Source: Acidithiobacillus sp. HP-2 (GTDB taxonomy: Bacteria > Pseudomonadota > Gammaproteobacteria > Acidithiobacillales > Acidithiobacillaceae). Taken from it: DNA of 64,000 nt. The translations under genes were made by a program, and so were the position numbers. Where the stretch lies: NCBI RefSeq assembly GCF_015100155.1, contig NZ_JACKZA010000005.1, forward strand, positions 1-64,000, read 5' to 3'. Below the pieces are notes generated by a model. It saw nothing but the letters and a program-made list of their open reading frames with translations. It had not been told where the DNA came from and did no database searches. Below are positions 12,466-40,335 of the stretch, in pieces; position 1 is the first letter of the stretch; each line of letters begins with the position of its first letter.

Positions 12466-13351
12466 GAGAAGCCTTTTTGGGCTTTTCACGATGATTTGGC
12501 CAGGATACCTGGGCCAGCAGAAGCAGCACGGCAAAGAGCACGCCCGCATCCAGGGCTATCGGCCAAGGACCGAGTGTTTGTGATCCCGCAACCGCGCAGG
12601 ATGTGTGCGAGAACAGGCTGCAAAAGCCCGTGAGGGCATGGGCGGCCTGGTGGATCTCCGCGAGCTGTAGAAGCACCGCTGTACTTCCCAGAACCCCGGA
12701 CGCCAATGCCACGTCCGGACGCCGTGCTATCGCCGCGAAAAGGATGCCAAACAATCCTATGCGCTCGATCCAGCACAATGCGCAGGGATCCCATCCATGA
12801 AAGATCTGCAGGGAGAACACCCAGATCAAAGCGATTCCGGCCAGGATTCCTGAAACAAAGCGGATTCCATTCTGGATACGGGTCCGGGTGAAGAATCTTT
12901 CCCAGCGAAGCAACAACGGTCCCAGAACCAGAGGCGTCACCCCGATACCGATGGCCAACAAGTTCCCATCCTTGCCAATCGGCAACCAATGCAGCTCGGC
13001 TACCACGGCGAATATCCCGCCCAAGGCGGCCAGAGCTGCCCATTTCCGATGCCCGGAGAGTATGGCTGTGGTGTAAACGGTCGAGAGCATGAGCGCGACG
13101 ATGGCGAGCTTCATCCACCAGGGAAAAGCAGTATCCAGTCCGGATCCAGAAACACTAGAAACGCCCTCTGCGGCACTACTGGCGGCAGCCATGGCCGCGA
13201 AGCTCGTGGACGATGCGGAAAACGCCGAGATCCCCGCCTGGGCACCGGCCAGGCACACACCCCCCGCGCAGGCTCCGGCACTGGCGGAGAATACTGCCGC
13301 CAGGGTGCTGCCCAGGCTGGTGGCACTTCCGGCAAAGTTCCGCGTACTCAT
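12458..13351 (-). CDS. DsbB-like membrane protein with an Ala/Ser-rich N-terminal extension
   Basis: 297 residues. From residue 80 on there are several membrane helices, and the DsbB signature DPCALCWIERIGLFG places a CxxC at about 190/193 at a membrane edge. A second cysteine pair (about 244 and 252, in GFCSLFSHTSC) sits in the next periplasmic loop, as in DsbB. DsbB reoxidises DsbA-type oxidases by passing electrons to quinone. The first 70 residues are Ala/Ser/Gly-rich and unlike DsbB. The start at 13351 overlaps the previous stop (ATGA). Together with the DsbA- and DsbC-like genes it suggests the locus brings its own disulfide pathway. Confidence 0.7.
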   Translation of the reverse strand: MSTRNFAGSATSLGSTLAAVFSASAGACAGGVCLAGAQAGISAFSASSTSFAAMAAASSAAEGVSSVSGSGLDTAFPWWMKLAIVALMLSTVYTTAILSGHRKWAALAALGGIFAVVAELHWLPIGKDGNLLAIGIGVTPLVLGPLLLRWERFFTRTRIQNGIRFVSGILAGIALIWVFSLQIFHGWDPCALCWIERIGLFGILFAAIARRPDVALASGVLGSTAVLLQLAEIHQAAHALTGFCSLFSHTSCAVAGSQTLGPWPIALDAGVLFAVLLLLAQVSWPNHREKPKKASHA

Positions 13352-14691
13352 CCACACCCTCCAGCCGCACAATTCTGCGGGGTGTAGCCTGCTGGGAGCA
13401 GGCTTTGGGGAGTAGGATCAGGGGTCGTTGGCGGTGCTGTTACCACATCCCAGTTCGACGCATTGCTCTGGATCAATACCTGTCCGGTGCTTGCCGTGAG
13501 CGCAAGGATACCTACAGATGGGTTGTTAGCCGGGGCGGTTGGAGAATACGGCACGGAAGGATAATTCATGACCATGTAATCAATGGTGTCCTGTCCTGCC
13601 GGAACAGAAACATTGCCGGACCAGGGTTCGGAATTGTTTTCTGATTCCCAGTTGCCGTAAGCAACCTGCTGGCCGTTTATCCACACCCAGCCAATGTTGT
13701 CTGCTAAAAAGGTAAGATTAGCCTGGATATTCCCCAGCGTATTATCAAAAGTGGCCTGCATGACGCTGTAAGCTGACTGAGGCACACCCGTTGCTCCATC
13801 ATTTGCGCCATATATCCACTGAGCATTTGCCGCCGTTATTTGCGGGTTCTGACACACATCCTGATACCAACCGCCGATAAGAGGGTTTCCTGTAAAATTG
13901 CAGGCCCAAGATGATGGATCCGGATATAAGGTTTCATCCGTGGGCGGTGTCGTGCATTCCGTGGATTGCGGGCCGTAATGACCGCAGACCCGTTCATACT
14001 CAACAGGGCATTCTCCCGTTATGTAGTACCAGGTAGAGGGGTTTGAGGTGATAATCGGCTGTTCGGTACCATTGATGTCTGCATTGACCTGCAGAATCCC
14101 ATAGGAAGAACCACTACCGTTCGTGATTCTCATCACGATGGTATCTTTTCCAGGTGGCAGAGAAATGGCAGACGACAGCAATCCGTCTGTACCGGGATAG
14201 GCGTGAGCACCGGTATGTCCCACGTCCGAGTAGCTGGCCACTTGTGCGCCATTGACATAGACCGCGCCAAAATCATTCATGGCATACCATGCAGTACCTT
14301 GAATGGTGCTATCCGTATTGTTGTTGTAGAAAGTTTCCAGGTATTGCGTTACTCCAGATCCGGCGTTTCTGCAGTTTGTTGTTCCATAAATCCATTGAGC
14401 GTCGGGTGCATCTCCGTTGCCCGCCCATCCGTTTACTGGACCCGCGCAATAAGAGGCCTTTGGATACGGCTGAGGAGAACACTCTTCCTGTTTCTTGCAC
14501 CGATAACACGGCCCCCAATACGGCATAAGACCTGTATGCCGGGAATGGATGTACTGGCTGCCGAGGGTGTTCATCTGCAGGTCATCGCCAGTGATGCCAT
14601 AGACGGATGCGGCCAGAGACGGGGCGGGCAAGATGATGCCTGCTGACGCCATCAGAAGAGCTATGGACAGGGCGGCATGGCGCGTGATCAT
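13348..14691 (-). CDS. secreted protein with two copies of a shared beta-rich module
   Basis: 447 residues with a signal peptide (about 1-28). Two copies of one module are visible, at about 98-223 and 289-415. Each starts AQWIYG, has a middle block such as NDFGAVYVNGAQVASY or DNIGWVWINGQQVAYG, a PPGKDTI or PAGQDTI block, and ends with an Ile/Ser/Asn strand before a Trp. The same module occurs in the TraN-like protein and in the pilin-like fusion protein of this locus. Between the copies is a Cys-rich linker. The pattern looks like a carbohydrate- or surface-binding beta sandwich; the function is inferred. The ATG at 14691 overlaps the previous stop. Confidence 0.7.
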   Translation of the reverse strand: MITRHAALSIALLMASAGIILPAPSLAASVYGITGDDLQMNTLGSQYIHSRHTGLMPYWGPCYRCKKQEECSPQPYPKASYCAGPVNGWAGNGDAPDAQWIYGTTNCRNAGSGVTQYLETFYNNNTDSTIQGTAWYAMNDFGAVYVNGAQVASYSDVGHTGAHAYPGTDGLLSSAISLPPGKDTIVMRITNGSGSSYGILQVNADINGTEQPIITSNPSTWYYITGECPVEYERVCGHYGPQSTECTTPPTDETLYPDPSSWACNFTGNPLIGGWYQDVCQNPQITAANAQWIYGANDGATGVPQSAYSVMQATFDNTLGNIQANLTFLADNIGWVWINGQQVAYGNWESENNSEPWSGNVSVPAGQDTIDYMVMNYPSVPYSPTAPANNPSVGILALTASTGQVLIQSNASNWDVVTAPPTTPDPTPQSLLPAGYTPQNCAAGGCG

Positions 14692-15818
14692 CCGGGCTCC
14701 TGAGTGCATTGGTTATCCGCGCACAACTGGCCTAAATACGCGACACCTCCGCTAGTCGGTGCATACCCATTCACACAACGGGGATTACTGGAGTCCACGG
14801 AAAAGGTAAAAGGGCCATATTCTGTGTTCACGGTAATAGGGCCACCGCTAAATGTTCCACCGTTCTGGGCTGATGCCAGCGTAATAGCTGACCCCGTTGC
14901 GGTCTGATTCGACTCTGTAGTTCCGCAAGAACCCGTTTGTGGATTATTAAATGCCTCAATACTGCTTCCTGAGCCAATCAGACCTGAATTTCCGCCGCAA
15001 TAATTCCCGACCTCGACGGTCCCTGTAATGTTGATAGATCCTGAAAAGGTGTTGGTAGCCGGGTCATATTGAATAGTCTGAGTGTATTCCCCGCCATATT
15101 GTGCTGCCTGCGGGCTAGTAAAAGACCAACTCGTTCCACCCGTTATGGTCCAGGCATTTCCACCATTGTATCCATCGTAGCTAATACTTCCCGTGATCGG
15201 TGATTTTTCACAACAGAGAGGATCAGGGCTGTTCTGGTCGCATGAGCAGGATGTTGTGGAATTATCGTAATTCCCTGCCGAACTCTCACAAATACTGTAA
15301 TCGCTGGTACATTCGGGCACCGCACTGGTTGCCGTCTGCGAACAGGTGCATTCATTGGTACTGTTCTGATAGCTGGGTAGAGCCGCCTCGCAGAGCTTGT
15401 AATAACTCGTGCATTGCGGGCTGGTGGCCCCTGTCGGACAGGTGCAATCATAATACTGGGCATCCGTCCCCAGACGGTTCTCCTCGATCTGCAAAAGATT
15501 CGGGCAATCCGATGCGGGAAGGGCTGAACAAACCGGTTGTGTGGCTCCGACTGGGCAGTAGCAATCCTCATTTGTCGGGATTTCTCCGGTCCCCATTTCC
15601 TGCTGCAAGGTCGTTTCGCAGTTATTCGTGGGTGGAGTTGTCGGCACCGATTGGGTTGGTGCCGACAAGGGAATGGTGTAGGACGTAGCCCCGCTAAATT
15701 CGCGGGCTATGTCGTCCTGAATGGTGTCGCCGGAATACGCCCAGGCCTGCGCCGAGAATCCCAAGAGGATTCCGGCAGCAAGCCATGCAAAGCGGGTATG
15801 GGCGACGGGCTTACTCAT
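14688..15818 (-). CDS. secreted Cys-rich repeat protein
   Basis: 376 residues with a clear signal peptide (LAAGILLGFSAQAWA). From about residue 65 to 210 it contains four or five short repeats with spaced cysteines. The unit looks like YxxC, about ten residues, then N-x-C-x-C, then P-x-C (for example NECTCSQTATSAVPECTSDY). The C-terminal half is a Gly/Thr/Ser-rich beta-type region. The same Cys unit occurs in the pilin-like fusion protein at 25510-26538. Likely extracellular and disulfide-bonded, which fits the Dsb genes in the locus. Its ends overlap both neighbours by four bases. Confidence 0.7.
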   Translation of the reverse strand: MSKPVAHTRFAWLAAGILLGFSAQAWAYSGDTIQDDIAREFSGATSYTIPLSAPTQSVPTTPPTNNCETTLQQEMGTGEIPTNEDCYCPVGATQPVCSALPASDCPNLLQIEENRLGTDAQYYDCTCPTGATSPQCTSYYKLCEAALPSYQNSTNECTCSQTATSAVPECTSDYSICESSAGNYDNSTTSCSCDQNSPDPLCCEKSPITGSISYDGYNGGNAWTITGGTSWSFTSPQAAQYGGEYTQTIQYDPATNTFSGSINITGTVEVGNYCGGNSGLIGSGSSIEAFNNPQTGSCGTTESNQTATGSAITLASAQNGGTFSGGPITVNTEYGPFTFSVDSSNPRCVNGYAPTSGGVAYLGQLCADNQCTQEPG

Positions 15819-16822: not shown

Positions 16823-19822
16823 CTATTCTTCTATCGGTTGTGGAGCCAAATCAGCATTTACATCTCCGTTGGGGTGGTCAATCTGCCCCGGTGTGTACTC
16901 TGCAGCTCCAGCGGCATTGCTACCTGCGACGATTCCCGCTTTCTGAAGCATCGCAGTCCAGGCCGATAGAGATACCTCATTCCAGTCCACGTCACCAAGC
17001 TGCTGCGGTGTGAAGCCGTTGCAATTTGGATTCTTGGGCGTGCCATAACCACCCGCTACACTGGGCTGACCAATCTTGATCTGGGACGCGATGATCCGGT
17101 CCAAAGGAGAGGCGTAACAGCAAAAAATATCTTTGTGTTCCAGGCAGAAGCCCAGGAATTTTTCTGTGCAATAGGTGCCGATATTTTGGCACTTATGCAG
17201 CTTACGGCTTTCGCCCAATTCAAACTCTTCTTTTTTACAGGAAGTCATGATTTCCGTAATCATTTGAATAATCTGGAAAACCGAGTAGGCCAACATCAGA
17301 TCGCCAACCAACCCGGTAATAAACTTAGAGGTGACAAACTGCATAATCTTGTTTTTTATTGCTGTCCCAAAAAGATGTTTCAGAACATAACTAGCTGCTG
17401 TTTTGAGCCAACCTTCTACTTGATCTTGCAGGCCGCTCAGTAAACCTTTTGAAGCTGCCCCGGATGCATTAGCCGCATCGTGGGCTACTTTTGCCACATC
17501 CCCACCTAATTGCGCTCCCGCACTGGCTCCACCGACGCCAAATGCGTTTTCTACCGCCTCGGACGCACCTTTGAATGCCCCGGTTACATAGCTCCAGCCA
17601 TCGGATGCCCAGGTGTCAAATTTGCTATAAGCCGTTTCATACCAGCTTCCCTTGCCAAAAAGAAAACCATCCGGACTAATCGCCTTGGATCCGAATATCC
17701 ATGAGTCCATTGTGGAGTTGTTCGCTACAGACCAGACATTCCTGGTCAACTCAAGATATTGCATCAGACCAGGCCCACTCGCCCCGGCCTGTAATCCCTC
17801 CTTACAGCAATTATTGGTAAACACGCCACCAAACGGCCAGGTCCGGCAATAATCCGCCTTCCCCTGAAATATAATCGGCTTGCAGTTTCCAGCCTTGATA
17901 CTGGTTCCATCGGCGCACTGCATGTTCTGTTCCATCTGCTGAAGCGCCGAGAGCGCGGTCATCGCTTCCGAAAAGTGCAAATCCTGATTCCCAAAGAGCG
18001 CATGACATTGGGTACCCATGCACTTGATGGGGCTATTGCAGAGGATGCTCTGCGCGTGCGTATTGGGATTGGTGCCGGTCACGGTCTGGCCGGGATTTAT
18101 GGTCACGGTCCCGCTCGAAGAGGATCCATTGGTCGGGGTGTATAGCCAGTGGCTATTCGTGTCGATCAAGACCTGACGAGTGCCATTGACGGTGCCAATG
18201 ATGGTGAGTATTCCCCCTGAAGTATTGTCAGCCGTCGTGCCTGCTTGATCATTGGTGATGTAATACAGAATTTCATCCGGGCCAGGGGCCAGCGTTACGG
18301 GTACCGAAACCACTCCGCCCGTTGAGGGGTAGGTCTGTGCTCCAGTGACTCCCTGATCGTCATAGCTCGCCACTTGTGTCCCGTTGATGTCCACCACGCC
18401 CTTATCGTTTGCAGCGAGATACAACGTAGCGTCGATGGTTGCCCCTGTTGTATTCGAGTAAGTTCCTTCCATCATGTCGGTCTGACCGTTAGGCACACCC
18501 GCACCACAACCGCCTGTGGTCCCATAAATCCATTCCGCATTCGGATCCGGCCAGTCAGCCGCATCAATCCAGCCCGTGCTTGTATAGGTGCTCAAAGGCT
18601 CATCGCAGGCCACTGGATTCGACTGGATGCTGGGCGCACTGGTACTGGTTGTCGATACGGACGTGGAAGACGTGCCCGAATTGGCAATATCGAGATTGTT
18701 GTTGGTACAGGCGACGTTTTGATAATACTGGCTGAATACCGATGGATTACTCTCGATAAACGGCATCATCTTGTTGATCATGCCCTGATTCGAGGGATTC
18801 GCCAGAAACTTATTCAGCATGGGATCCGATGTGTAGCTGTTCAAGCCACCCGGATAGGTAGAGATATTCTCCAGATAAGATTGAGCATCGTTACATTGCC
18901 CGTAGATCTCCTGGTATTGCTGGGATGCAGTAGTGGTGTTGGCATAGTTGCTGGATAGGGCTATGGAGCCATTATCCCCGACCTCTGCGGTGCCCGTTGT
19001 CTGACCGATCAGGCTGTCAGCTTTGCTGGTCAGACCATTCAGGCTGTCGCTCAGGCTTTCCGCCGCCGCAGGGGACGTAATGCTGGTCGGTAAATCACTG
19101 CATTCGTCAGCGACACTATCCAGTGTCCCGGCCCAGGTATCGCCCAGACTGTTCAGAGTCGGCACTCCAGATCGACTTAACAGATTGCAGGCCGGCGCAT
19201 ACTGGTACTGATTATGAATGTCCGGCGCACAGGTGGTGAGCAAGGCATTGCCCGCAGAATGCACATCTGCGAGGGATGTACCGAAATGGTGTATGTTCTC
19301 CAGCGCATCCGTGTAAGCTGCATTGCTTCCACTACTTTCTGCATCCTCAATGGAAGCAGATTCCGCATTGAGGGCCGTCTGGCAGACGGTTTGAGCATGG
19401 GTGACGGCCCCTATCCCGGTGCTGTCAAAGCTGTTCAGCGGTCCCGGCCAGCCATTCGGACAAGTCGGATCGCTCATCAGGGCGGCATTGGCACTGTCGG
19501 CCTGGTTGATGGCATTACCTTGGGTCAATCCCACATTATCCGGTAGGTAATAGCTGGAAGCCCCCGACTCTCCGGGTGTGGGATTGCTTCCCGCAAAGCC
19601 CTGCATTTCCTGTTGTCCGGCCCCAGAAGCCGCATCTTCCTGTCCACCCAGCAGCAGGCTATTCCCGAAGTTCACGCCGCCTTGAGCCTGATTGACGAAC
19701 TGCCCGGCCATGGCGGTTGCCGTGGATTCGTAATAAATGCCGATCCCAAGCATGGCGGCAATAAAGGCCGAGGCTACCGGCCTGCGCCGTGTGGGATGCG
19801 CCATCCAGCAAAAGAAAGCCAT
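16823..19822 (-). CDS. traN: TraN-like mating-pair stabilisation protein
   Basis: 999 residues. The C-terminal 400 carry TraN features: many spaced cysteines, the segment ADYCRTWPFGGVFTNNCCKE, hydrophobic helices, and the end EKFLGFCLEHKDIFCCY. TraN sits in the outer membrane and helps hold donor and recipient together. Residues about 426-563 are an inserted copy of the beta-rich module shared with two neighbours (AEWIYG, ANDKGVVDINGTQVASY, LAPGPDEI). The N-terminal 400 residues are Ser/Ala/Asn-rich. The start MAFFCWMAHP at 19822 overlaps the TraU stop (TGATG); the longer reading is a shadow. About 1.6 times the length of F TraN. Confidence 0.8.
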   Translation of the reverse strand: MAFFCWMAHPTRRRPVASAFIAAMLGIGIYYESTATAMAGQFVNQAQGGVNFGNSLLLGGQEDAASGAGQQEMQGFAGSNPTPGESGASSYYLPDNVGLTQGNAINQADSANAALMSDPTCPNGWPGPLNSFDSTGIGAVTHAQTVCQTALNAESASIEDAESSGSNAAYTDALENIHHFGTSLADVHSAGNALLTTCAPDIHNQYQYAPACNLLSRSGVPTLNSLGDTWAGTLDSVADECSDLPTSITSPAAAESLSDSLNGLTSKADSLIGQTTGTAEVGDNGSIALSSNYANTTTASQQYQEIYGQCNDAQSYLENISTYPGGLNSYTSDPMLNKFLANPSNQGMINKMMPFIESNPSVFSQYYQNVACTNNNLDIANSGTSSTSVSTTSTSAPSIQSNPVACDEPLSTYTSTGWIDAADWPDPNAEWIYGTTGGCGAGVPNGQTDMMEGTYSNTTGATIDATLYLAANDKGVVDINGTQVASYDDQGVTGAQTYPSTGGVVSVPVTLAPGPDEILYYITNDQAGTTADNTSGGILTIIGTVNGTRQVLIDTNSHWLYTPTNGSSSSGTVTINPGQTVTGTNPNTHAQSILCNSPIKCMGTQCHALFGNQDLHFSEAMTALSALQQMEQNMQCADGTSIKAGNCKPIIFQGKADYCRTWPFGGVFTNNCCKEGLQAGASGPGLMQYLELTRNVWSVANNSTMDSWIFGSKAISPDGFLFGKGSWYETAYSKFDTWASDGWSYVTGAFKGASEAVENAFGVGGASAGAQLGGDVAKVAHDAANASGAASKGLLSGLQDQVEGWLKTAASYVLKHLFGTAIKNKIMQFVTSKFITGLVGDLMLAYSVFQIIQMITEIMTSCKKEEFELGESRKLHKCQNIGTYCTEKFLGFCLEHKDIFCCYASPLDRIIASQIKIGQPSVAGGYGTPKNPNCNGFTPQQLGDVDWNEVSLSAWTAMLQKAGIVAGSNAAGAAEYTPGQIDHPNGDVNADLAPQPIEE

Positions 19823-21198
19823 CAGCCACTCATCCCCGTGTGGCCAATGACGCCCAGGCAGCAGTTGGTCCATTGCCAGACGAGATACACATAGTTGCTT
19901 CCCGTTCCCGGCTGGCTGTCCCACTCACCCCACTGAAAAGGTGTTTGCCCCATCCAGTGCGTGCATTCACCCGACTGGGTTGGTGGAGCCTGAATGTTTA
20001 CGCCACCATTTTGCGCCACGGTACCCTGATTGCTGGCCGCAGGATGAACAACGTTCGCAGGCGGTATGCTGCCGCCCTGTTGCTGCGAGTTGCTGAGATC
20101 CGGGGCGGTTACACTGGCATTGGGCTCCTGATTGGTTTCGTCATTCGGGAACATGATCTGGAAGCGATACTGGGCCTTGGGCAGCACATAGGTCCGCCGG
20201 GGACCGCACACCACGCTGTTGCCGGTTGTGCGCTCCAGAAATCCTAAGCGGAATCCCATAGCCAGCATCCGGGCTACATCGAGACTGGATGCCTGAATAG
20301 GATCATCGCCGCCGAGATTGGATCCGACCATGGGATAGAGCAATCCCCAACAACCTGCAGTCCAGTATTCATCGTCAATGGGCTGTGCGCCGAGGCTTTC
20401 TTGAGCGCACTCTTCCGTGGCTCCCAGAAGCCCTATGGGATTGTCATAAAGCAATTCTTCCGGAGAAGCCAGGAACGAAAGCAGATCGTTATTCCAGGTC
20501 GGGAACACTTCGCTCATCAGCATAAGATTCATCCCGTGGTAGCCGGTATTGCAATCCGGGATGTCAGCGAGCTGCATCATGGTGATCAGCGGAAAAGTCC
20601 AGAGCTGGACGTTGAAAAAGGTACTGTTGTGTTCAGACGTGCTGACACCGGTTCCGACATCGCCGCCCCAGGAGCCAGTCCACTGACTGCCAACCGTAGA
20701 ACTCGGATCCAGGCTGACACCGCCCAGAACCGGCGAGCAAAACGGATGAGATACCGCCTCGATCAGCATGGATGGCTGCCAGTATCCAATCTGGATACCA
20801 ATAGTCGGGAGCTGCAGATGCCGCAGACTTCCGCCGCAGATGCAGGTAGCGCCCGAAGCCGCGCCATTGGGCACGCCGGAATTACCGCCGAACCAGGTCA
20901 TACCGGCCACGCGCAGCGGGAACATGGCTGACCAGCACACGCCGCCGATCAGTTCCTTGAAAATGCCAGCATCCGGGCACATGGTTGCGACCTGTGCGCC
21001 AGAGGCCAAGGCAGGAACAGAACAAAGCAGCCCCAGGGCCAGCGATGCGCCCTGTAGCCAGCGACGTAGTGGATTGCTGGTTTTCTTGGGCTTATCAGCA
21101 GGCAAGAAAATGGCGGGAGACCCCAACCCCTTGTATCTTTGGATTTCCACGTCCTGATACTCAAGAAAGGAGTTACTCCCATGAAAACGGCTCTTCAT
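19822..21198 (-). CDS. traU: TraU-like conjugation protein
   Basis: After a signal-like stretch (LQGASLALGLLCSVPALASG) the protein shows the TraU pattern: CPDAGIFKELIGGVCWSAMF, then PLRVAG, many cysteines, NPIGLLGATEECAQESLG and GYWQPSMLIEAV. F TraU is a periplasmic protein needed for DNA transfer. The C-terminal 100 residues are Gln/Asn/Pro-rich. The start is uncertain: the ATG at 21198 lies inside the divergent gene, and GTG at 21150 or a TTG nearer the signal peptide are alternatives. The frame stays open to 21960, but that part is antisense to another gene. Confidence 0.75.
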   Translation of the reverse strand: MKSRFHGSNSFLEYQDVEIQRYKGLGSPAIFLPADKPKKTSNPLRRWLQGASLALGLLCSVPALASGAQVATMCPDAGIFKELIGGVCWSAMFPLRVAGMTWFGGNSGVPNGAASGATCICGGSLRHLQLPTIGIQIGYWQPSMLIEAVSHPFCSPVLGGVSLDPSSTVGSQWTGSWGGDVGTGVSTSEHNSTFFNVQLWTFPLITMMQLADIPDCNTGYHGMNLMLMSEVFPTWNNDLLSFLASPEELLYDNPIGLLGATEECAQESLGAQPIDDEYWTAGCWGLLYPMVGSNLGGDDPIQASSLDVARMLAMGFRLGFLERTTGNSVVCGPRRTYVLPKAQYRFQIMFPNDETNQEPNASVTAPDLSNSQQQGGSIPPANVVHPAASNQGTVAQNGGVNIQAPPTQSGECTHWMGQTPFQWGEWDSQPGTGSNYVYLVWQWTNCCLGVIGHTGMSG

Positions 21199-22750: not shown

Positions 22751-23356
22751 CTACTCCGCGCCCGCAACCGACTGTTGCTCTGCCTTTCCATCAAGCGAGG
22801 CAGAATGCAAAGCCAATCTATTCAAAGCCAATCGCGCAGTTAATCCACCAAAACAATCCTTTAGTTTGCCTTCCGTTACTCGGAATCCTGCGCCTGTCTC
22901 GGCTCTGAACTTGTCCAGAAAGGCATCCAGATCATGCCCTTCCTCAGTACCCGATATACCCTTCCAGACGGGCACGTTTTCTATCACTTCAGCATGAGTC
23001 AAGATGTTTACTACGTCTTCGTCTGCGACCGAATAACCGCCTTTTTCCAGGGCAGCACAAAGCAGCCTGTAACCAGAAAGCGTATTATTCAGGTAATAAT
23101 CAGCACCGGGATTGCTTCCCCTGATCAAAGTTGGGAACATCGCCAAGATTTCTTCCTCTGTATGTGCTTTGCTTACAGGAACCTGTTTATCTTCTGCATC
23201 CAGTTCAAAAACGATTTTGCCTTTGGCGTTTTGCAGCACGCTTAAAGCATCAGCCAGGGACATCCCTTGCCTCGTTTTTCCAAGAACTACCTGATGCTGA
23301 TGGTTTCCCGCATTGCAATGAAAATCGAAATAAAACTCGTGTTTCTGACTGGTCAT
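22751..23356 (-). CDS. hypothetical transfer-locus protein
   Basis: 201 residues, soluble, no family recognised. It begins MTSQKHEFYFDFHCNAGNHQ and contains an EEEILAMFPTLIRG segment. AGGAGG precedes the ATG at 23356, which overlaps the TrbC-TraW stop (ATGA). It is the last gene of the long overlapping series that starts at 40487, before two plus-strand genes break the operon. Confidence 0.55.
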   Translation of the reverse strand: MTSQKHEFYFDFHCNAGNHQHQVVLGKTRQGMSLADALSVLQNAKGKIVFELDAEDKQVPVSKAHTEEEILAMFPTLIRGSNPGADYYLNNTLSGYRLLCAALEKGGYSVADEDVVNILTHAEVIENVPVWKGISGTEEGHDLDAFLDKFRAETGAGFRVTEGKLKDCFGGLTARLALNRLALHSASLDGKAEQQSVAGAE

Positions 23357-24618
23357 TTCTTCCTCCTTTCCAAAGGTTCTTTCGGAACCGTAATCGACAA
23401 AACCTTCCCATCAGGCCGAATCAGCGCCGGTACCCGGTTGATGCCAAGCCTCTGTGCCAAATGTGGGGTAATGCCATAGACGGGGTGCTGCAGACGCTCT
23501 ACCAGCGCATTTTCTGCCTGCCATGAATCGGGCAGCTCGCTGGCCATCATCACGACATTCGGATAGGTGCTCTCCCAGGCCTCTACCTGGGCAACCTGCC
23601 AGGCTTGCGCGGGATTGAACACGATATAGCTCTGGGTCCATCCAAAGGGCATGGCGGTCAGGGGATCGAGGATCTGACCCTTGTGGACCAGAACCTTTCC
23701 GGATGGCAGGCGAATCGTCGCGGTAGCGATGATGCTGGGATTGTAGGTGTAGTGACGACCGTTCTTTGAATCCGGCAGCTTATCCCCGATCCGTGAACGG
23801 ACTTCCTGCCAGTCACGATCCTTGGCCTCTTCTTCCGTTTTTTTCCAGTTAAAGGTTTTAATCTTCTTCTCGAAGACCGAGATCATGTTGGGTTCAGCAA
23901 TTTTCCACGTTTGGCCGTGAATCTTATGCGGATTCCCTTTCCCGTGATTGATGGCTGTGATCGCCCCGCGTAGGCCATCACCATCCCCGACGATGGCTCC
24001 CCATTTCCCGTCCGGAGCATGGTGAATAATGACCGGGGCCAGATTCACATGATGATCCGTGAACTGGATTGGATTGATCTCGACGTTCGCGGTCTTTTTG
24101 TACGACGGCATCAGACCGTTGACCTGGCTGATCATGTCCGGCAGGCCTTCGGGCTTGTTGGGCCAGCCGCGCAGCACAAACACCGTGCTCTCAAAGAGCT
24201 TTTTGTTGTCGGCCACGGCCTTGAACCATCGCCGCAGTATGCTGTGCGGCATATTCATGGAGATGAACACCAGGGTTTTCGCCTGCATCTCCTCTTTTTT
24301 CATCAGGGTATGATCCACATACTCCTGCAGAGCTTTTCCGTGGAGATTGGCGGGAATAACGGGCACCCCGTTTACCCGCTTACGCAGAAACTCCTGCGCC
24401 TGGGCATTGGATTCTGCCGCATACTCTGCCGCGTATTGCTGCAGATCGTTTTTCGCGGGCTGCATGAAGGTTTTTTGGGTAGGCGTATCCTGCGCGGAAA
24501 GCTGAACGCCGTGCGTTTCCCAATCCGGTGCGGATTGCTTACCCGCCGAACGCATAATCCCATCGGATCGCTGCACGATGGACTGCACCTGGGCCATGTT
24601 GACCGCCGGGGTAATCAA
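23353..24618 (-). CDS. TrbC-TraW fusion protein
   Basis: 421 residues combining two F-type proteins. The first half has the TrbC pattern (KTLVFISMNMPHSILRRWF, then FVLRGWPNKPEGL). The second half has the TraW pattern (DWQEVRSRIGDKLPD, HYTYNPSII, LDPLTAMPFGWTQSYIVFN, GINRVPALI). In F these are separate periplasmic proteins of the assembly machine; fused forms are known in other F-like systems. The TTG at 24618 overlaps the previous stop (TTGA). No signal peptide is visible in this reading, odd for periplasmic proteins, so an upstream frameshift or a different start is possible. Confidence 0.75.
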   Translation of the reverse strand: MITPAVNMAQVQSIVQRSDGIMRSAGKQSAPDWETHGVQLSAQDTPTQKTFMQPAKNDLQQYAAEYAAESNAQAQEFLRKRVNGVPVIPANLHGKALQEYVDHTLMKKEEMQAKTLVFISMNMPHSILRRWFKAVADNKKLFESTVFVLRGWPNKPEGLPDMISQVNGLMPSYKKTANVEINPIQFTDHHVNLAPVIIHHAPDGKWGAIVGDGDGLRGAITAINHGKGNPHKIHGQTWKIAEPNMISVFEKKIKTFNWKKTEEEAKDRDWQEVRSRIGDKLPDSKNGRHYTYNPSIIATATIRLPSGKVLVHKGQILDPLTAMPFGWTQSYIVFNPAQAWQVAQVEAWESTYPNVVMMASELPDSWQAENALVERLQHPVYGITPHLAQRLGINRVPALIRPDGKVLSITVPKEPLERRKK

Positions 24619-25448
24619 CGTGCCCCCGCCGGATTCTGGACGCTGTTGGCCAGCACTTCAGCGGATCCTACAGCGGATCCCACGCGCAGCAGATTATGCA
24701 CGGGGATGGCAGCTTCCATATTCGCCTGTGGAAAATAAATCACCAGAAATGGCGGCTTCATAGGGATCTGACTCAACACCGTTTTATTTCTTGCCGCGAA
24801 TCGGGATCCGAGTGGAATCGGCGCACCGGCAGGTTGATGATGCAGCACATTCAGAAGCCGGTCCTCGCGGCCTCGATTGCCTGCCGAGAGGATGGCAGGG
24901 GCCAGAGGACCAATGGGCACGAGCTTCAACGCCATGACGTTCAATGCGCCCTTTTTCTGCATCTGGCCAGCCTCTCCCATCATCGCTCCCATGACCTTGT
25001 AGCCCATCGGGGTGGATGGATTGAAGACGGCAATCATGTAATTCTTGGCCGTCTTGTTTCCGACTGTGATTCCAGAAAGGGAAGCACATTGGAACGCTAT
25101 CCGGCTGGCTGCTGGACCCTTGAGGATGTCCACCTTGCCGATATACTTCAGGCCATAGCCATTGGTCATGTTGTGACCATTTTCGAGGTTGGCCACCAGG
25201 CCACTGATCAGGTATTTCCCATCGGGCGTGAGATAGGCTATGGCTTTGCTGCCATTGTATTCCATCACGATTCCGGTCAGGCCGCCTGGCCCCGGAAAGG
25301 TTTTGATGATCTTCCCGGCATGATGCGAGGCCAGCACATGCGCGAGCAACGCGGTCGGCGCAGCTATCGCCTGGGTTGCCACGGTCAGCATCCCTGCTGC
25401 CAGGAATCCAGATAATGTTTTTCGCCAGGGAAAAATACCCACAAACAA
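24615..25448 (-). CDS. DsbC/DsbG-like protein without the CxxC motif
   Basis: 277 residues with a signal peptide (FLAAGMLTVATQAIA). The N-terminal domain looks like the DsbC dimerisation domain (VMEYNGSKAIAYLTPDGKYL). Where active relatives have DPNCxxCH, this protein reads FNPSTPMGY, so both cysteines are gone (about residues 146-149). It cannot be a redox isomerase and may act as a chaperone or structural part. The TTG start at 25448 follows AGGGGC; the 60-base gap before it is the largest in this stretch of operon and may hold a promoter. Confidence 0.65.
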   Translation of the reverse strand: MFVGIFPWRKTLSGFLAAGMLTVATQAIAAPTALLAHVLASHHAGKIIKTFPGPGGLTGIVMEYNGSKAIAYLTPDGKYLISGLVANLENGHNMTNGYGLKYIGKVDILKGPAASRIAFQCASLSGITVGNKTAKNYMIAVFNPSTPMGYKVMGAMMGEAGQMQKKGALNVMALKLVPIGPLAPAILSAGNRGREDRLLNVLHHQPAGAPIPLGSRFAARNKTVLSQIPMKPPFLVIYFPQANMEAAIPVHNLLRVGSAVGSAEVLANSVQNPAGAR

Positions 25449-25509: not shown

Positions 25510-26538
25510 CTATCCAGCGCAGCTTTGGGTGTAGCAGTTCACGATTGGACCGGAAGGGGGTGGCGACAAAGAAGAGGGAGAAACTGTTTGTACCTGATAC
25601 CAGGACTTTCCTCCGGTAGTTGAGTAAACGGTTTTGTTGGAGCCTTCCACCTGATCAATCGTCCCACTTGGATTCGGTCCGTACTCCTCCTGTGCTGATG
25701 AAGACTGTGGAAAATTATGAACAGTTACCGAAAGGGTATTTTCTCCTGGCTGGAGAACAATAGGTATTTGTTGCACCTTATCGGAATTGTTTCCGTAACC
25801 CACCTGCACCCCATTCAGGTCGTACCAACCCTGGTTATCACTCTCTGCAAACCAATAGACGGTTTTGGGTTTTCCTGTGGGATTATCTATCTTCGTTTGG
25901 TATGTATAGAAGGCGGCCCCGTTAATATTCCCTTTAGAAAAACCTACAGTTGGCCCTATCCATTTCGATTTGTCGTTTTCAAAATATATCGGGTCTTGAC
26001 AAGCCTCGGCACTGGAATTCCACGAGGATTGAGTGCATGTTGCGGAGTATGCGGGCTTTGCATTGTTCGGAATAGAACTACAAATTGGTGTTGCGTCCTG
26101 AACCTGAGTAGAAAAACTGCATGAACAGGTGTTGCTTGATGTCGCATAACCTTGGAGGTTTCCTTCACAAGACGAATAATACGTCTGGCACTGTGGCGTA
26201 GCCGACCTTCCATTACACGAACAATCTTCTCCCGTTTGCTCGTCTGTATTAAACAGATTGTTTTCGCACACCCGCGTATTCGCCGCATAGTGTTCTTGCT
26301 GGGCAAACTGCGCTCTGACCACGGCACAGTCTTGATCCCAGTGGAACATACTCTCGATAATCGGCACGCCGTAGTACATGGCGAGTGCTCCACCAATGAC
26401 ATACGGAATGGCCCCGGACCAGCGTAAATACACCATAAGCCCTATGGCGAAAACCAAGCCTGCGCCGAGGACAGCCATCCCCAGGCCGCCCTGTGCCCAG
26501 CCCTGGAATGTGCAGATCATCGGAGAAAAACCCAGCAT
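25510..26538 (-). CDS. pilin-like domain fused to Cys-rich repeats and a beta-rich module
   Basis: 342 residues in three parts. Residues 11-66 (GWAQGGLGMAVLGAGLVF, then VIGGALAMYYGVPIIESMF) match the mature part of the pilin at 32998-33417 (GWAQGDLGLTIVAGGLIF, VVGGAVALYYGIPVLVSIF), with about half the positions identical. Residues 70-155 carry the Cys repeat unit also found at 14688-15818. Residues 190-318 are a divergent copy of the beta-rich module of TraN and the 13348-14691 protein (NDKSKWIG, SDNQGWYDLNGVQVGYG, LQPGENTL). I infer a minor pilin carrying a tip domain. There is no long pilin leader. The ATG follows the peptidase gene by nine bases. Confidence 0.75.
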   Translation of the reverse strand: MLGFSPMICTFQGWAQGGLGMAVLGAGLVFAIGLMVYLRWSGAIPYVIGGALAMYYGVPIIESMFHWDQDCAVVRAQFAQQEHYAANTRVCENNLFNTDEQTGEDCSCNGRSATPQCQTYYSSCEGNLQGYATSSNTCSCSFSTQVQDATPICSSIPNNAKPAYSATCTQSSWNSSAEACQDPIYFENDKSKWIGPTVGFSKGNINGAAFYTYQTKIDNPTGKPKTVYWFAESDNQGWYDLNGVQVGYGNNSDKVQQIPIVLQPGENTLSVTVHNFPQSSSAQEEYGPNPSGTIDQVEGSNKTVYSTTGGKSWYQVQTVSPSSLSPPPSGPIVNCYTQSCAG

Positions 26539-26547
26539 CTTAGTATC

Positions 26548-27078
26548 CTATAAGGCCCAAGCCCTTCCGGTGATGTTTTTCGCGGGCACCAATCCCCAGT
26601 AACGACCGTCATAGGAACCGGGTGTGACGCCCATCAACAGGTATTTCCCTTTGGGAATGGTGATCGTCTGCGGTGACAACACCTTCAAGTGTTTGTAATG
26701 CACCCACGGCATCAGCCAGCGTTTGCCCCAGTAGCGATAAGGACCGGAAGGACCAGCAATCCAGATGCTATCGGGCTTGATTTTCACCCGGTCCCCTGGA
26801 ACCCCCACGACCATTTTCACCACTTCGATCCTTTGTCCACCGGAGATGATGTTGATCTTCCGGTCATGAAACAGGACCAGTTCACCAGGCTTCGGATCTG
26901 TCTGCCCGTACTGCACCAGGAAGTTCGACCAGGGCAGGCAGGACTGGTACTGCGGATCTATGGAAATGCCGTAGTGCATGGCGATACCCGGCCCCAGAAA
27001 CATGCCGAGAAACACGGCAACGGCCCCCATGCCCATAATCAGGATGAATTTCGATTTCAGCGTCAGTCCGCTAGTCAT
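26548..27078 (-). CDS. TraF-type signal peptidase (S26 family)
   Basis: 176 residues: one membrane segment (ILIMGMGAVAVFLGMFLGP), a serine in DPQYQSCLPWSNFLV at the position of the catalytic serine, the lysine region EVVKMVVGVPGDRVKI, and the closing box YLLMGVTPGSYDGRYWG. This matches plasmid TraF/LepB-type peptidases that mature or cyclise pilins. It lies between TrbI and the pilin-like fusion gene, so pilin-type substrates are likely. The ATG at 27078 overlaps the previous stop (ATGA). Confidence 0.75.
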   Translation of the reverse strand: MTSGLTLKSKFILIMGMGAVAVFLGMFLGPGIAMHYGISIDPQYQSCLPWSNFLVQYGQTDPKPGELVLFHDRKINIISGGQRIEVVKMVVGVPGDRVKIKPDSIWIAGPSGPYRYWGKRWLMPWVHYKHLKVLSPQTITIPKGKYLLMGVTPGSYDGRYWGLVPAKNITGRAWAL

Positions 27079-27590
27079 CCCGCCCCTCCAAAATCCTGGG
27101 CCAGTCGCGCCTGTACGATCTTTTCCACCTGTGCGGTTACGTTGTTCGTTTCCGGCGCGGCCAGCACGTTGCGCGAAAGCACCAGATCGCCACGACGCGC
27201 ATAGTTTGCGGCGACTGCTTGTATCGTCTGCCCGATAACATGCCCCATTTCTGCGGCTTCATGACGGGTCAACGCGCCATTCTCCACCTGCGATTTGATG
27301 ACATCAGCCATGATCTTTCCGGTATTGATATACACCACCGGCACACTGCGCGGGCCACCGCTGACTGCCGCTGCACGGGAATGCTCGCCCCCTGCCATCA
27401 GATCGGAGAGTGTGCCGGACTGCACCAGAAAAGAGATACCCCCCGCAGCGACTACACCGACCAGCAACATGATGGGATAGGCAAAACGCTCCCGAAAAGA
27501 GGGCTTTTTGTTGGGCGTCGCATTCTGCGGGTTTGCTACTTCCGCCGAAGATTCTGCTGGATCAGTTTTGTTGGTTAAAAGATCTTCCAT
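27075..27590 (-). CDS. trbI: TrbI-like conjugation protein
   Basis: 171 residues with one N-terminal membrane helix (YPIMLLVGVVAAGGISFLV) and a periplasmic domain containing SVPVVYINTGKIMADVIKSQ. This fits the F-type TrbI, an inner-membrane protein that affects pilus outgrowth and retraction. It overlaps TraC by 16 bases and the TraF peptidase by four. In F, trbI also follows traC. Confidence 0.7.
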   Translation of the reverse strand: MEDLLTNKTDPAESSAEVANPQNATPNKKPSFRERFAYPIMLLVGVVAAGGISFLVQSGTLSDLMAGGEHSRAAAVSGGPRSVPVVYINTGKIMADVIKSQVENGALTRHEAAEMGHVIGQTIQAVAANYARRGDLVLSRNVLAAPETNNVTAQVEKIVQARLAQDFGGAG

Positions 27591-30238
27591 TTGCGCCTCT
27601 TTCTGCCCGATTGTGTTGTATCCGCTTGCGATACCTTCTCTTGATCTGCTTTTTGCTGATCCATCTGATTTTCCAAATCCGTGATGGATTTGAGGTAGTC
27701 CAGATCCTCTCCCTTGGCATCGTTCGGATCGTTTTCTTCAGGAGCCAATTCCTGTTTGGCGATATAGGTTTTCTCGCGGTCCAGAAAATCCCGAATAGCC
27801 TGATCCGGCGATACACCGCTTCGCATGGCGGCAATGACATCCTCCTTTTCCGGCCCGTCTGTGGCGTACAGCACCCGGCGATACGGATCGAGCTTCAGAC
27901 GCCCTACCCCCATCTGGTCTTCGCTCATGATGAAGCATTCTGCGTACTCGCCGGTTTTTCTCAGGCTTCGCATCATTTCATAAGCGGATGTCCCGACGGA
28001 GAAGAGCTGATCTTTCTCAAGCTGGGCCAATACATCCTGATGTTGCTTCATCACCAGAAAATGTGCGGTTTGCGAAGCAATAACCCGCGTGTAATCGTTC
28101 ATATACAAGTCCCGCAACCCTTGCAGGCCCAATCCCAGGGAACCGCGATTCTTGGCAACGCGCCGCGAAAGGCCTTCCAGAAACTTTGCAGCCGTGGGTA
28201 TCTGCAACAGGACACTGGCTTCATCGACGAACAGTATCCGGCGGCGATGTTCCCCGTCGGCATCACCCCGCCCGATTTCCCGGCCAATGGCGAACATCAT
28301 CTGCATGAGAACCACCATCAACAGATGCTTGCGATTTTCCAGTTCCTTGAGTTCCAGATTGACGAATCGGCCATTGAGATCGACGTTCATCGGCTGGTTG
28401 AACCAGTGTCCATAAGCCCCGTGGTCGGTGAAACGATGGAGCATCTTGCCCATCTCCATGGCACGAGGATCGTTGTCCTGGGCCACCAGATATTCGGCCA
28501 TGTGGGTTGGGGTCGCATCTTTGCCCATGTTGCCGAAGATGGATTCGATGGCCAGTTCGATGATGTTCAGGTCGCGGTCGCTCAACTGGCCGCTGGGAGA
28601 GATCATGGTCCCGAAGATGCCGACCAGTTCATCCATTTCATCGTGCAGATTTTCCACCACGGTAAAGGGATTCAGTCCGATCTCCATATCGGGACGCAGA
28701 TCAATATGATCGCCACCAAACATGGTGCAAAGTTTTTCAAAGGACCGGCCAATTTCGATCACCCAGGCCTGAGCACCGAGGCTGAGTTGATCCGTGATGA
28801 GCTGCTGTGCAGTCACGGACTTGCCGGAACGGGTACGTCCGGCCAGCACAAAGTTATATCCGGACTCGGAAGCATAGAGATCAAATAAGAGCGGGTGCCC
28901 ACGGCGCGTTATGAAGATGGTCCCTGCACCGGGTACCGTCATGCGTTGATTGTCCTGCACGTTTCCGGTCCAATCCACCAGAAGCGGCGCACAGACCGCT
29001 GCCTGCGCGGTCGTTCCGGACAGCATCCGCTTGGTCATGAACAGGCTTTGTTCATCCGGAAACAACGGGAGCGCATTGAGGAACATGGGCAATGCAAGGA
29101 AATTATCTTCCAGAAAAGTGAAACCGCCTTTAGCTCCGTTGGTAATAAACGCTTTGGCGGCTTTGTCGGCTTCCTCCTGGGTTTTTCCCCAGATAATCCC
29201 CGTCAGATTCATTTCCAGCGCATGTTCGCCGCTATCCAGCGCGTTAATCAGGAAGTCGATGCCCTCTTTTCGCATTCCGAGGCGAGGCGACCACTTGGCC
29301 ATGCGGCCCCGTGCCTGCATGTTGGTGATCACCTGCTTGCTGTTCAGTTCATTCCGTTTTTTCACCTGATCTGGCAAGCGGACGGTCAACACCACGGCGG
29401 TTGGCGTGAGGAGTTGGCCCCCCTTACCCAGTGGATCCCCCATCAGGAAATTCGTGGAAGCCACACTGATAGGTCGGGTGAAACTTTTGATCGAAAGCAC
29501 CTTGATCACATCGCTCATGCCGTCGCCATGCTGGATAGAGAACAGATCGGAGCGATCATCTACGGCGTCACCCGGCCCCAATATCTGATCCCGCAAAAGC
29601 TGATGAGGATCCTCTCCGTCAAACCAGTTCCCCCGGATATGTACGAAGCGCCGCCACAGGGCGAGAGTTTCCCCTCTGGAAAGACGCTGCGGCGCAAAGC
29701 TGTTCATACTCGACTGAAAGGAGGTGATTCGCTCGTGGACCATCTGAATCTCGGCATCGGTCGGATATTCCGCTACAGGCATCTTGATGGCGATATAGAC
29801 CTGGCTCTCTGTCAGCGGCACGCCAGAATCCCGGAAGACCGGCTCTTTCGCCGCATGATAACTGTCAAAGTATTCAACAGTCTTTTGGGTAATCCCATGG
29901 AGCAGGCTGCGCTGTTCTTTGGTTAATCCGGTATCATGGCCTATGGCGCTGCGTGCAGACTGGTATTGAAGCATCTGTTGCTGCACGTCCGGAACATTCA
30001 TCCCGATAATCTGGATAAAGGTGTCCGGGGGCAGATTCATGGACCAGGCCGATTCCAGTTCATTAGTAATGCTGTCATCCATGCCCGAAAACAGGTTGCA
30101 GGCCATCACACAACCGACATACCCATGCGCCATGTAAACCAGTTTGAAATTTTCGTCCCAGGCATACCAGGGAAAGAGCGTATCGAGACTATGCCGTTCC
30201 AGCAGCCGATACAGTTGGTCGTTCAGTGTCGTGCTCAA
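27575..30238 (-). CDS. traC: TraC/VirB4-family ATPase
   Basis: 887 residues. Walker A is GRTRSGKSVT at about residue 465, followed by AWVIEIGRSFEKLC; Walker B is RRILFVDEASVLL near 662; the arginine-finger region is RRVAKNRGSLGLGLQGL. Size and order match TraC, the cytoplasmic motor that drives pilus assembly. The last 80 residues are highly charged. The TTG start at 30238 overlaps the DsbA-like stop (TTGA). Confidence 0.9.
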   Translation of the reverse strand: MSTTLNDQLYRLLERHSLDTLFPWYAWDENFKLVYMAHGYVGCVMACNLFSGMDDSITNELESAWSMNLPPDTFIQIIGMNVPDVQQQMLQYQSARSAIGHDTGLTKEQRSLLHGITQKTVEYFDSYHAAKEPVFRDSGVPLTESQVYIAIKMPVAEYPTDAEIQMVHERITSFQSSMNSFAPQRLSRGETLALWRRFVHIRGNWFDGEDPHQLLRDQILGPGDAVDDRSDLFSIQHGDGMSDVIKVLSIKSFTRPISVASTNFLMGDPLGKGGQLLTPTAVVLTVRLPDQVKKRNELNSKQVITNMQARGRMAKWSPRLGMRKEGIDFLINALDSGEHALEMNLTGIIWGKTQEEADKAAKAFITNGAKGGFTFLEDNFLALPMFLNALPLFPDEQSLFMTKRMLSGTTAQAAVCAPLLVDWTGNVQDNQRMTVPGAGTIFITRRGHPLLFDLYASESGYNFVLAGRTRSGKSVTAQQLITDQLSLGAQAWVIEIGRSFEKLCTMFGGDHIDLRPDMEIGLNPFTVVENLHDEMDELVGIFGTMISPSGQLSDRDLNIIELAIESIFGNMGKDATPTHMAEYLVAQDNDPRAMEMGKMLHRFTDHGAYGHWFNQPMNVDLNGRFVNLELKELENRKHLLMVVLMQMMFAIGREIGRGDADGEHRRRILFVDEASVLLQIPTAAKFLEGLSRRVAKNRGSLGLGLQGLRDLYMNDYTRVIASQTAHFLVMKQHQDVLAQLEKDQLFSVGTSAYEMMRSLRKTGEYAECFIMSEDQMGVGRLKLDPYRRVLYATDGPEKEDVIAAMRSGVSPDQAIRDFLDREKTYIAKQELAPEENDPNDAKGEDLDYLKSITDLENQMDQQKADQEKVSQADTTQSGRKRRKWKIF

Positions 30239-30975
30239 GGCTGTCCCCCTAACCGGTTTTCAGAAATACACCGCGACACCAGCGCATTGGCCATCTGGAA
30301 AAATTCACTGTAATTGCCCTGCACGTCGCCGGGATTCAGGACGTAATGGCCGCAAATAATGAGCGAGGGGGTTTTGCGGATCCTGGCTTTTGCCATGATT
30401 TTCACGTCCCGAAAAACCATGTGTTTGACGGGCTCCAGATGGATGCCGATGGCAAAAACATTCGCAGGCACCCCGACATCCTCTGCAGCAATCCGATAGG
30501 TATCGAGACTCCAGTAGGGCGAATGACGATCCTGAACTTCGGCAAAAGCCGCATCATCAAAACGCGGGAGCAAAGCGGGGTTGTAGCCTTCCACGGTAAA
30601 AAAAGCGCGAGTCATGGGGATCCAGGACTTACCCACTGCTGCGGGCATCTGCTGAAAATGCACATCACTGGGCAAAGTTTGCGCCCAGCGCAGAATTTCA
30701 CCATTCAGTGCCCGACAGAACGGGCATTCATAGGCCATCGCCTCGATCACGGCACTGTTCATCCCGGTAAGATGTACGGTACGGTAGGGCTGAAAGTGGG
30801 GCATGGCATGACCCGCAGATCCCGACATTCCCATCCCTGCCCCGGCCATACCCGCAGAGGAATCCAGACTGCTCAGACCATCCAGACTGTCCATCGCCCA
30901 TGCCGGTGCCGCGCAAACCAGACCGATGCACAGGATGAACGCGCTGATTTTGTGATTATTTTTAATCTTCGACAT
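30235..30975 (-). CDS. DsbA-like thiol oxidoreductase
   Basis: 246 residues with a signal peptide and a Gly/Met/Ser-rich spacer, then a thioredoxin-like fold with the active site AYECPFCRALNGE (CPFC at about 84-87) and the cis-proline region IRKTPSLIICG. Probably a periplasmic disulfide oxidase for transfer proteins. It may replace F TraF or TrbB. The ATG at 30975 overlaps the ATPase gene by 14 bases. Confidence 0.75.
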   Translation of the reverse strand: MSKIKNNHKISAFILCIGLVCAAPAWAMDSLDGLSSLDSSAGMAGAGMGMSGSAGHAMPHFQPYRTVHLTGMNSAVIEAMAYECPFCRALNGEILRWAQTLPSDVHFQQMPAAVGKSWIPMTRAFFTVEGYNPALLPRFDDAAFAEVQDRHSPYWSLDTYRIAAEDVGVPANVFAIGIHLEPVKHMVFRDVKIMAKARIRKTPSLIICGHYVLNPGDVQGNYSEFFQMANALVSRCISENRLGGQP

Positions 30976-32164
30976 CCGACAACCCCGCAATCAAGGCCTT
31001 GCTATTAGTGATCCCCTCATGCACCAGACGGCATCCCCAGGTAATGAGCGGCGCGAATTGCGGCTGTTTCTGGGCTGCCGCAAGCATGGCTTCCTCATCG
31101 CCCAGTACGTTCCGATAGGCTTTGTCATAACGGATTGCCTCGAAGAGTACCCGGCGCAAAGCGTAGCCGGGTGTGGCGTGGCAATGATCGCAGCCGTTGC
31201 CGATCATCTCCGAATCAGGAACCGCTACACCGCTACCCTCAAAGATTTCCGGATGCTGGACGGGCTGCGCCTGGGCGCAATGTGGGCATACGCACTTGAT
31301 GATTCTTTGCGCGAAGACAACGCGAATTGCGGCTTTCATGAGATGGATCGGCAGGCCCAGATCTTTCAGCCGCGTATAAACGCCGTTGGCGGAATTGGCA
31401 TGAATAGACGCCAGTACCTTGTGTCCGGTAATGGCCGCCCGCACTGCCATTTGCGCGGTTTCTTCGTCGCGTATTTCGCCAATCAGAATATCATCGGGAT
31501 CCTGACGCATCATGGCGCGAATCGCGCTGGCGAAAGACCGCCCGGTTCCGGATCCTACGGGGATTTGCTGGATACCCGGCAGAACAAATTCCACCGGGTC
31601 TTCAGCGGTAATAAATTTGTTATCGGGACGACTGATCGCGCCGATCCCGGCATAGAGTGTGGTGGTCTTGCCGGATCCGGTGGGTCCACCGGCAATGATG
31701 GCTCCTTCTTTCTGCTGCAGCGCCCAGCGATAGAGATCCTGAACGGCTGGCGGCATACCGAGTTTTTCAATCGGCATCCCTGCGTTTTTGGAGTCCAGTA
31801 ACCGGCATACGGCAGAAACGCCATTCACCGTCGGAACGATGTTCAGACGCACTTCTACGCGCCGGCCTTCAATTTCCTGCACGAACCTGCCGTCCTGCTC
31901 TTTGCGGGTTTCATCGACGGGGAGCTTGGACCGATAGCGGAGCTTCGCCAGAAGCAGGATGGCTTTGTGTGGGGAGATCACCTCCAGTTCGGCCAGTGTT
32001 CCGCGAATCCGCGCACGAATCCGCATGGATTGATCCAGTTGGGTTTCAAAATGCAGATCCGACCAGCCCTCCTCCGCCCCCTGATAGAACAGATCATTCA
32101 GCAGACTGACGACCGGGCCATCCCGGTCGCTGGTGGAGATAAAGGCATGTGATTCCTGTGCCAT
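30962..32164 (-). CDS. GspE/PilB-type secretion ATPase
   Basis: 400 residues of the type II secretion/type IV pilus ATPase family: Walker A GGPTGSGKTTTL (about 159-170), Asp box TAEDPVEFVLPGIQQIPV, Walker B DDILIGEIRDEETAQMA, His box ITGHKVLASIHA, and a zinc part with CVCPHC and CDHCH. The long N1 domain of true GspE is missing, so it is closer to PilT/TrbB in size, though the zinc motif is GspE/PilB-like. F-type systems normally lack a VirB11-like ATPase, so its place between DsbC and DsbA-like genes is unusual. It starts three bases after the DsbC-like stop. Confidence 0.85.
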   Translation of the reverse strand: MAQESHAFISTSDRDGPVVSLLNDLFYQGAEEGWSDLHFETQLDQSMRIRARIRGTLAELEVISPHKAILLLAKLRYRSKLPVDETRKEQDGRFVQEIEGRRVEVRLNIVPTVNGVSAVCRLLDSKNAGMPIEKLGMPPAVQDLYRWALQQKEGAIIAGGPTGSGKTTTLYAGIGAISRPDNKFITAEDPVEFVLPGIQQIPVGSGTGRSFASAIRAMMRQDPDDILIGEIRDEETAQMAVRAAITGHKVLASIHANSANGVYTRLKDLGLPIHLMKAAIRVVFAQRIIKCVCPHCAQAQPVQHPEIFEGSGVAVPDSEMIGNGCDHCHATPGYALRRVLFEAIRYDKAYRNVLGDEEAMLAAAQKQPQFAPLITWGCRLVHEGITNSKALIAGLSDVED

Positions 32165-40081: not shown

Positions 40082-40335
40082 CAAAATTTCTCCCTGGTTT
40101 TAGCAATTTCTCCGGCCAGCGCGGTTTTCGCGTTGAGCAAGTTCTGCAGGACATCCTTTTCTCCAATAGAAATTACACTACCATTAACTATCACGACCAT
40201 ATCTTTTATCCCCCTGGGATGCAGAATCTTCGTGAACAACATGGTCAGTATGAATCCTGCAAACTGAACCGGCGGAAGCCCGACCAGTTTTTGCGCTTCC
40301 TCTTCTAAGAGTTTCTGATCAAGATCATGATCCAA
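40081..40335 (-). CDS. small accessory protein with one membrane segment
   Basis: 84 residues if the TTG at 40335 (GGGGA seven bases upstream) is used. It contains QFAGFILTMLFTKIL and ends KTALAGEIAKTREKF. The frame is open to 40416, but that part overlaps the gene before it. No family recognised. Confidence 0.45.
   Translation of the reverse strand: MDHDLDQKLLEEEAQKLVGLPPVQFAGFILTMLFTKILHPRGIKDMVVIVNGSVISIGEKDVLQNLLNAKTALAGEIAKTREKF

Follow-up and report, generated by a model that had tools for sequence, protein, structure and literature searches.

The 64,000-nucleotide stretch of DNA analysed here, referred to as the window, carries on its minus strand an F-type conjugation cluster. The first half of this cluster encodes TraE, TraK, TraB, TraV, a pilin, a DsbC-like protein, a PilB-type ATPase, a DsbA-like protein and TraC. 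Following TraC, there are genes for a small protein in the position of TrbI, an S26 peptidase, the fusion protein that is the subject of this work, a further DsbC-like protein and a TrbC-TraW fusion. The cluster ends with TraU, TraN and additional secreted proteins (Table 1). Assignment to the F-type is confirmed, as the locus encodes the set of TraC, TraU, TraN, TraW/TrbC, TraV, TraE and TraK, all of which match F families.

Table 1. Positions of the fusion protein domains and of relevant cluster genes in the window.
Feature	Position	Strand	Basis
TraA/VirB2-type major pilin, leader of ~48 aa	32998..33417	-	NCBIfam TraA_gammapb 4e-10; Pfam TrbC/VirB2 0.0019
TraC, VirB4-type ATPase of F-type system	27575..30238	-	TIGR02746 1e-200
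S26 signal peptidase (TraF/LepB-like)	26548..27078	-	Pfam Peptidase_S26 2.6e-22
Fusion: pilin-like domain, aa 1-68	26335..26538	-	BLASTP, HHalign, shuffles, hydropathy, charges
Fusion: Cys-rich neck, aa 69-182, predicted to be periplasmic/extracellular and disulfide-bonded	25993..26334	-	invariant Cys; match to ORF 14688-15818
Fusion: lectin-like beta module, aa ~186-320, core WYxxNGxQVG	25579..25983	-	PDB profile, Foldseek, HHalign
Fusion: C-terminal tail, aa 321-342, ending NCYTQSCAG, conserved Cys pair	25513..25578	-	homolog alignment
Protein with DsbC/DsbG-like N-terminal domain, directly downstream of fusion	24615..25448	-	Pfam DsbC_N 4.5e-5; NCBIfam DsbG 2e-11
TrbC-TraW fusion, pilus assembly	23353..24618	-	Pfam TrbC_Ftype 4e-14; TIGR02743 TraW 9e-16
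TraU, conserved part (ORF runs further upstream)	19822..21066	-	Pfam TraU 1.4e-58; relatives
TraN, mating-pair stabilisation protein	16823..19924	-	Pfam F_T4SS_TraN 2e-28
Beta module in TraN, aa ~460-600	18125-18547	-	profile E=4e-14
Secreted protein with Cys-rich repeats as in fusion neck	14688..15818	-	sequence match
Secreted protein with two beta-module copies	13348..14709	-	profile

Further features of this region were noted. The PilB/T2SSE-type ATPase (30962-32164; Pfam T2SSE 4e-92) is encoded between Dsb-like genes; to our knowledge, canonical F has no VirB11-type ATPase. Five genes of the cluster look Dsb-related (12458-13372, 24615-25448, 30235-30990, 32168-32992 and 38837-40084), in line with an unusually high number of disulfide-rich surface proteins. 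Adjoining the transfer cluster, positions 43008-46679 encode a protein of 1223 residues, in which an NTPase part was recognised by eye and which is possibly a defence-type gene product.

The gene of interest (25510-26538, minus strand) starts 9 bases downstream of the S26 peptidase gene and encodes a protein of 342 residues, subsequently designated the fusion. The initial annotation had described it as a pilin-like domain joined to a Cys-rich part and a beta module, and sequence and profile comparisons bear out all three; no Pfam family is matched by the fusion. The ORF is real and intact. A frameshift or assembly artefact fusing two genes is ruled out, since the ORF is intact in six genomes with identities down to 34%.

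Similarity to the pilin was assessed by several comparisons. Residues 4-83 of the fusion align with residues 55-134 of the window pilin at 26 of 80 identical positions (33%; BLASTP, E=2e-9). As noted initially, this alignment is free of gaps, while the range given at that time (residues 11-66) has to be corrected: the match extends over residues 4-83 and is strongest from 4 to 66. The motifs GWAQG, LG and GGAxAxYYGxP, likewise noted initially, are indeed present in both proteins, and the core GWxxGxLG also recurs in TraA of other genera and is hence characteristic of pilins. The Smith-Waterman score of fusion and pilin is 148, as compared to 34+/-7 for shuffles that keep the hydrophobic pattern (maximum 63 of 2000) and to 45 for the second-best reading frame across the whole window. 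A profile of the six fusion N-termini matched a profile of eight pilins with a probability of 98.6% (HHalign, E=1e-15). Together, the shuffles and the profile match rule out chance likeness of two hydrophobic hairpins. Hence, the fusion possesses the core sequence of a mature TraA/VirB2 pilin, and also its two hydrophobic helices with a positively charged loop in between, which contains a conserved Arg residue (R39 in five of six homologs).

A cleavable leader of ~50 residues is missing, as the fusion begins at the pilin core. In-frame stop codons a few codons 5' of the gene, in the window and in three homologs (L004, L005 and L006), rule out an overlooked leader in these four cases. The fusion scores 13.9 bits with the TraA_gammapb model, compared to 39.5 for the window major pilin and a cut-off of 50, and stays under the cut-off of every curated pilin model. 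AlphaFold models built from thin alignments were weak. The full-length model reached a mean pLDDT of 42 (about 56-71 in the pilin part, up to 73 in the beta part), too low for the structural comparison suggested initially, but placed helices at residues 5-15, 18-38 and 44-84 with modest confidence, which is the layout expected for a pilin.

The outer part of the fusion contains 14 Cys residues, 12 of which are invariant across the six homologs. Ten invariant Cys lie in the neck between residues 71 and 180, while in the tail C335, Y336, T337, S339 and C340 are invariant. The neck resembles the repeats of the secreted protein encoded by ORF 14688-15818 (41% identity over 64 residues, E=3e-9). 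The number of Cys is even (14) in five of six homologs and C9 is located in the pilin part, which fits a hairpin with both ends on the oxidising side.

When the module profile of the fusion family was compared with the PDB, the lectin of Pleurotus ostreatus was matched with E~1e-6, including both lectin repeats. A second, independent profile, that of the ORF 13348 family, retrieved the same lectin (E=2e-5). Foldseek likewise found lectin 6t1d (E=3e-4), among beta-galactosidase-type domains, using the weak full-length model, and the isolated beta-domain model gave no significant match in the fold search. The lectin assignment is consequently carried by the sequence profiles. From these we conclude that the module is a remote relative of the tandem beta domains of the P. 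ostreatus lectin, a relation that is new in the present analysis. According to the titles of its PDB entries, this lectin was crystallised with melibiose, GalNAc and rhamnose. A search of the genome with the module profile detected four copies, all within the conjugation cluster: one each in the fusion and in TraN and two in ORF 13348-14709 (E=1e-81 and 4e-11). In HHalign, the fusion module matched the module of ORF 13348-14709 with P=99.6 and that of TraN with P=96.5. The profile search did not find the module in 398 other genomes of the phylum. TraN is a known adhesin and stabiliser of mating pairs. The earlier idea that the fusion carries an adhesin thus gains support, given that the beta module also occurs in TraN and has a galactose-type lectin as a relative.

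Next, the distribution of the gene was considered. Full-length homologs (34-72% identity) are present in six Acidithiobacillus genomes including the source genome, the nearest named relative being A. concretivorus ATCC 19703. Gene-by-gene comparison revealed a constant locus, i.e. S26 peptidase, fusion, DsbC-like protein and TraW, the exception being a second, divergent copy carried by one genome. Among 17 genomes of the genus, the fusion occurs in 6/6 with full-length TraU and in 0/11 without, one of the latter having its cluster cut by a contig end. Three plasmids among the closest TraC matches outside the genus share the gene order, except that TraW/TrbC directly follows the S26 peptidase and the fusion is missing. 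Judged from these comparisons, the gene is therefore an insertion in the Acidithiobacillus lineage of the F-type system, as far as sampled. No further members were detected in plasmids by tblastn or in viral contigs by a peptide-pattern scan, and in 399 genomes of the phylum only short stand-alone pilins were found outside the genus. A pilin-profile search of 369 genomes of the class yielded no clear second fusion; a few long frames at E~1e-4 are taken for unrelated membrane proteins. A hypothetical gene at a comparable place in Allochromatium pAt1 was rejected, as its product has no pilin motif.

The system may already be known in another strain. Tandem pilins of 135 and 136 residues, as encoded by one of the fusion-bearing genomes, are the published sizes of TraA1 and TraA2 of ICEAfe1 in A. 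ferrooxidans ATCC 23270 (PMC6370655). We infer from this agreement that the cluster of that genome is ICEAfe1, in which case the fusion would fall between AFE1091 and AFE1095. The same publication describes transcription of the T4SS genes of ICEAfe1 and TraA pilin at the cell surface; in its main table the fusion is absent, and the text, as far as accessible, assigns it no role (PMC6370655).

Conservation differs between the parts of the fusion. When the fusion is compared with its two closest homologs, identity in the pilin part amounts to 87% and 82%, close to TraC of the same genomes (92% and 86%), whereas the Cys part (62% and 48%) and the beta part (68% and 46%) diverge faster. Synonymous sites are saturated. 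The membrane part is thus kept like the proteins of the machine and the outer part is variable, as would be expected of a recognition head.

Rearrangements of related sequences were observed in relatives. At L031:68-3000 (genome G013, contig C873), a copy comprising only the C-terminal part comes after the divergent second fusion gene. This copy lies in a direct repeat of ~334 bases (88% identical), whose end is also similar to the first of the two fusion genes in that genome (DNA identity 82-84%). Such an arrangement suggests that adhesin ends are exchanged or that the copy is a silent donor. The secreted ORFs beside TraN (13348-14709 and 14688-15818; L031:16790-18082) differ between relatives by whole domains: in the window, ORF 13348-14709 has two beta modules, while its G013 version includes a segment that resembles the C-terminal portion of ORF 14688-15818. 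This suggests that the surface proteins of the system swap modules.

We regard it as the best reading, with a probability of roughly 60%, that the fusion is a minor pilin of the conjugation system that exposes a lectin-like adhesin, and thus probably the built-in adhesin of the mating pilus. F pilin is drawn from the inner membrane into a five-start helix and exposes both ends on the exterior of the assembled pilus (PMC7555446), so that a C-terminal domain of the fusion would be displayed. Accordingly, the fusion might reside in the inner membrane as a leaderless, TraA-like hairpin whose two ends face outward while the Arg loop is cytoplasmic, and the pilus assembly machinery might recruit it along with the major pilin. 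Neck and beta module would then be exposed on the pilus exterior. The most likely position would be the first layer, at the tip, because subunits of later layers would have to carry the bulky head through the outer-membrane channel. At the tip, the beta module would bind a glycan or glycoconjugate of the recipient cell; glycan binding is probable by analogy, as the nearest solved relative is a lectin and TraN carries the same module. Subsequently, the contact could be stabilised by TraN and by both secreted proteins that share modules with the fusion. Incorporation into the pilus, topology, position at the tip, glycan binding and role in mating are all proposals of this model. Lack of a processing leader and scores under all curated pilin cut-offs are points against a minor pilin, as is the folded domain of 270 residues, which would need to pass the outer-membrane channel.

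The missing leader and processing site would also fit an assembly factor that stays in the inner membrane. Its hairpin would bind either pilin or the TraG/TraE platform, and its Cys-rich/beta part would act in the periplasm, e.g. in nucleation, as a TraQ-like pilin chaperone or in quality control. The tight linkage to the S26 peptidase and the Dsb-like gene agrees with such a role, and TraQ, a membrane helper that binds pilin, provides a precedent (PMC7555446). However, a lectin-related module common to TraN and secreted proteins is not expected in a periplasmic helper, nor is fastest divergence in precisely the Cys/beta part, and we consider this explanation unlikely. Still less probable is a surface adhesin that is anchored by the hairpin outside pilus shaft and tip and acts with TraN in mating-pair stabilisation. 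Occurrence of the module in TraN and ORF 13348-14709 would suit this role, but the hairpin must exit the inner membrane, for which the known route of pilin hairpins is pilus assembly, and the conserved pilin sequence would be left without explanation. It is improbable that the fusion binds minerals or biofilm matrix instead of recipient cells. The host does attach to minerals (PMC6370655) and lectin-like modules can bind exopolysaccharide, but the gene occurs exclusively in the conjugation cluster and is missing in the 11 genomes of the genus that have no full-length TraU.

The fusion was compared with known systems. With the F-type TraA/VirB2 major pilin the fusion shares the mature core sequence, the hairpin with positive loop and the cluster, but it lacks the leader, has 270 extra residues (neck and beta module) and is encoded by a gene separate from that of the major pilin. 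In P-type systems, the minor tip component VirB5 (TrwJ, TraC of pKM101) contacts the recipient, which is the role proposed for the fusion. In contrast to the fusion, VirB5 is helical and possesses a signal peptide and no pilin domain. The VirB5 family (PF07996) gave no match in the fusion and none in the source genome, the latter search being silent in its control as well. We propose that the fusion works like a tip pilin or VirB5 while being neither VirB5 by sequence nor, regarding size, leader and cut-off, a standard TraA; it might serve as a functional stand-in for VirB5, probably at the tip. In the idea of a minor pilin whose exchangeable adhesin end selects the recipient, the fusion resembles PilV of IncI plasmids with its shufflon C-termini. 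PilV, however, is an unrelated pilin and belongs to a type IV pilus system with prepilin peptidase. VirB2 of X-T4SS also bears a C-terminal extension that varies and may, as has been suggested, decorate the pilus. These proteins of 80-104 residues are, however, major pilins, and their short extensions comprise no folded adhesin (PMC6536674). The fungal tandem lectin (PDB 6t1d, 6t0q, 6kbj) is a remote relative of the beta module.

A more far-reaching version can be put forward tentatively, as less probable than the minor-pilin reading itself. In Acidithiobacillus, F-type systems might build the pilus tip from a pilin-lectin fusion dedicated to this purpose, of which five copies could form the first layer of the five-start helix. 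The fusion would replace VirB5 in pilus start and in glycan-based choice of recipients, and specificity might change as outer modules are exchanged between the fusion, TraN and both secreted partners.

F systems lack VirB5, the tip protein known from other conjugation systems, and the fusion bears on the composition of the F-type pilus tip and on first recognition of the recipient. The absence of VirB5 tip proteins from F is stated in a 2025 review (PMC12857230), in agreement with the initial view that a minor pilin bearing an adhesin at the pilus tip would be new for F-type systems. A pilin equipped with a lectin-like adhesin offers a concrete candidate for the F-type tip, and antibody labelling has already been achieved for pili of the related ICEAfe1 system in A. 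ferrooxidans. If the proposal is true, it would also provide a natural example of a pilus whose binding head can be exchanged, and a means of approaching gene transfer among bioleaching bacteria.
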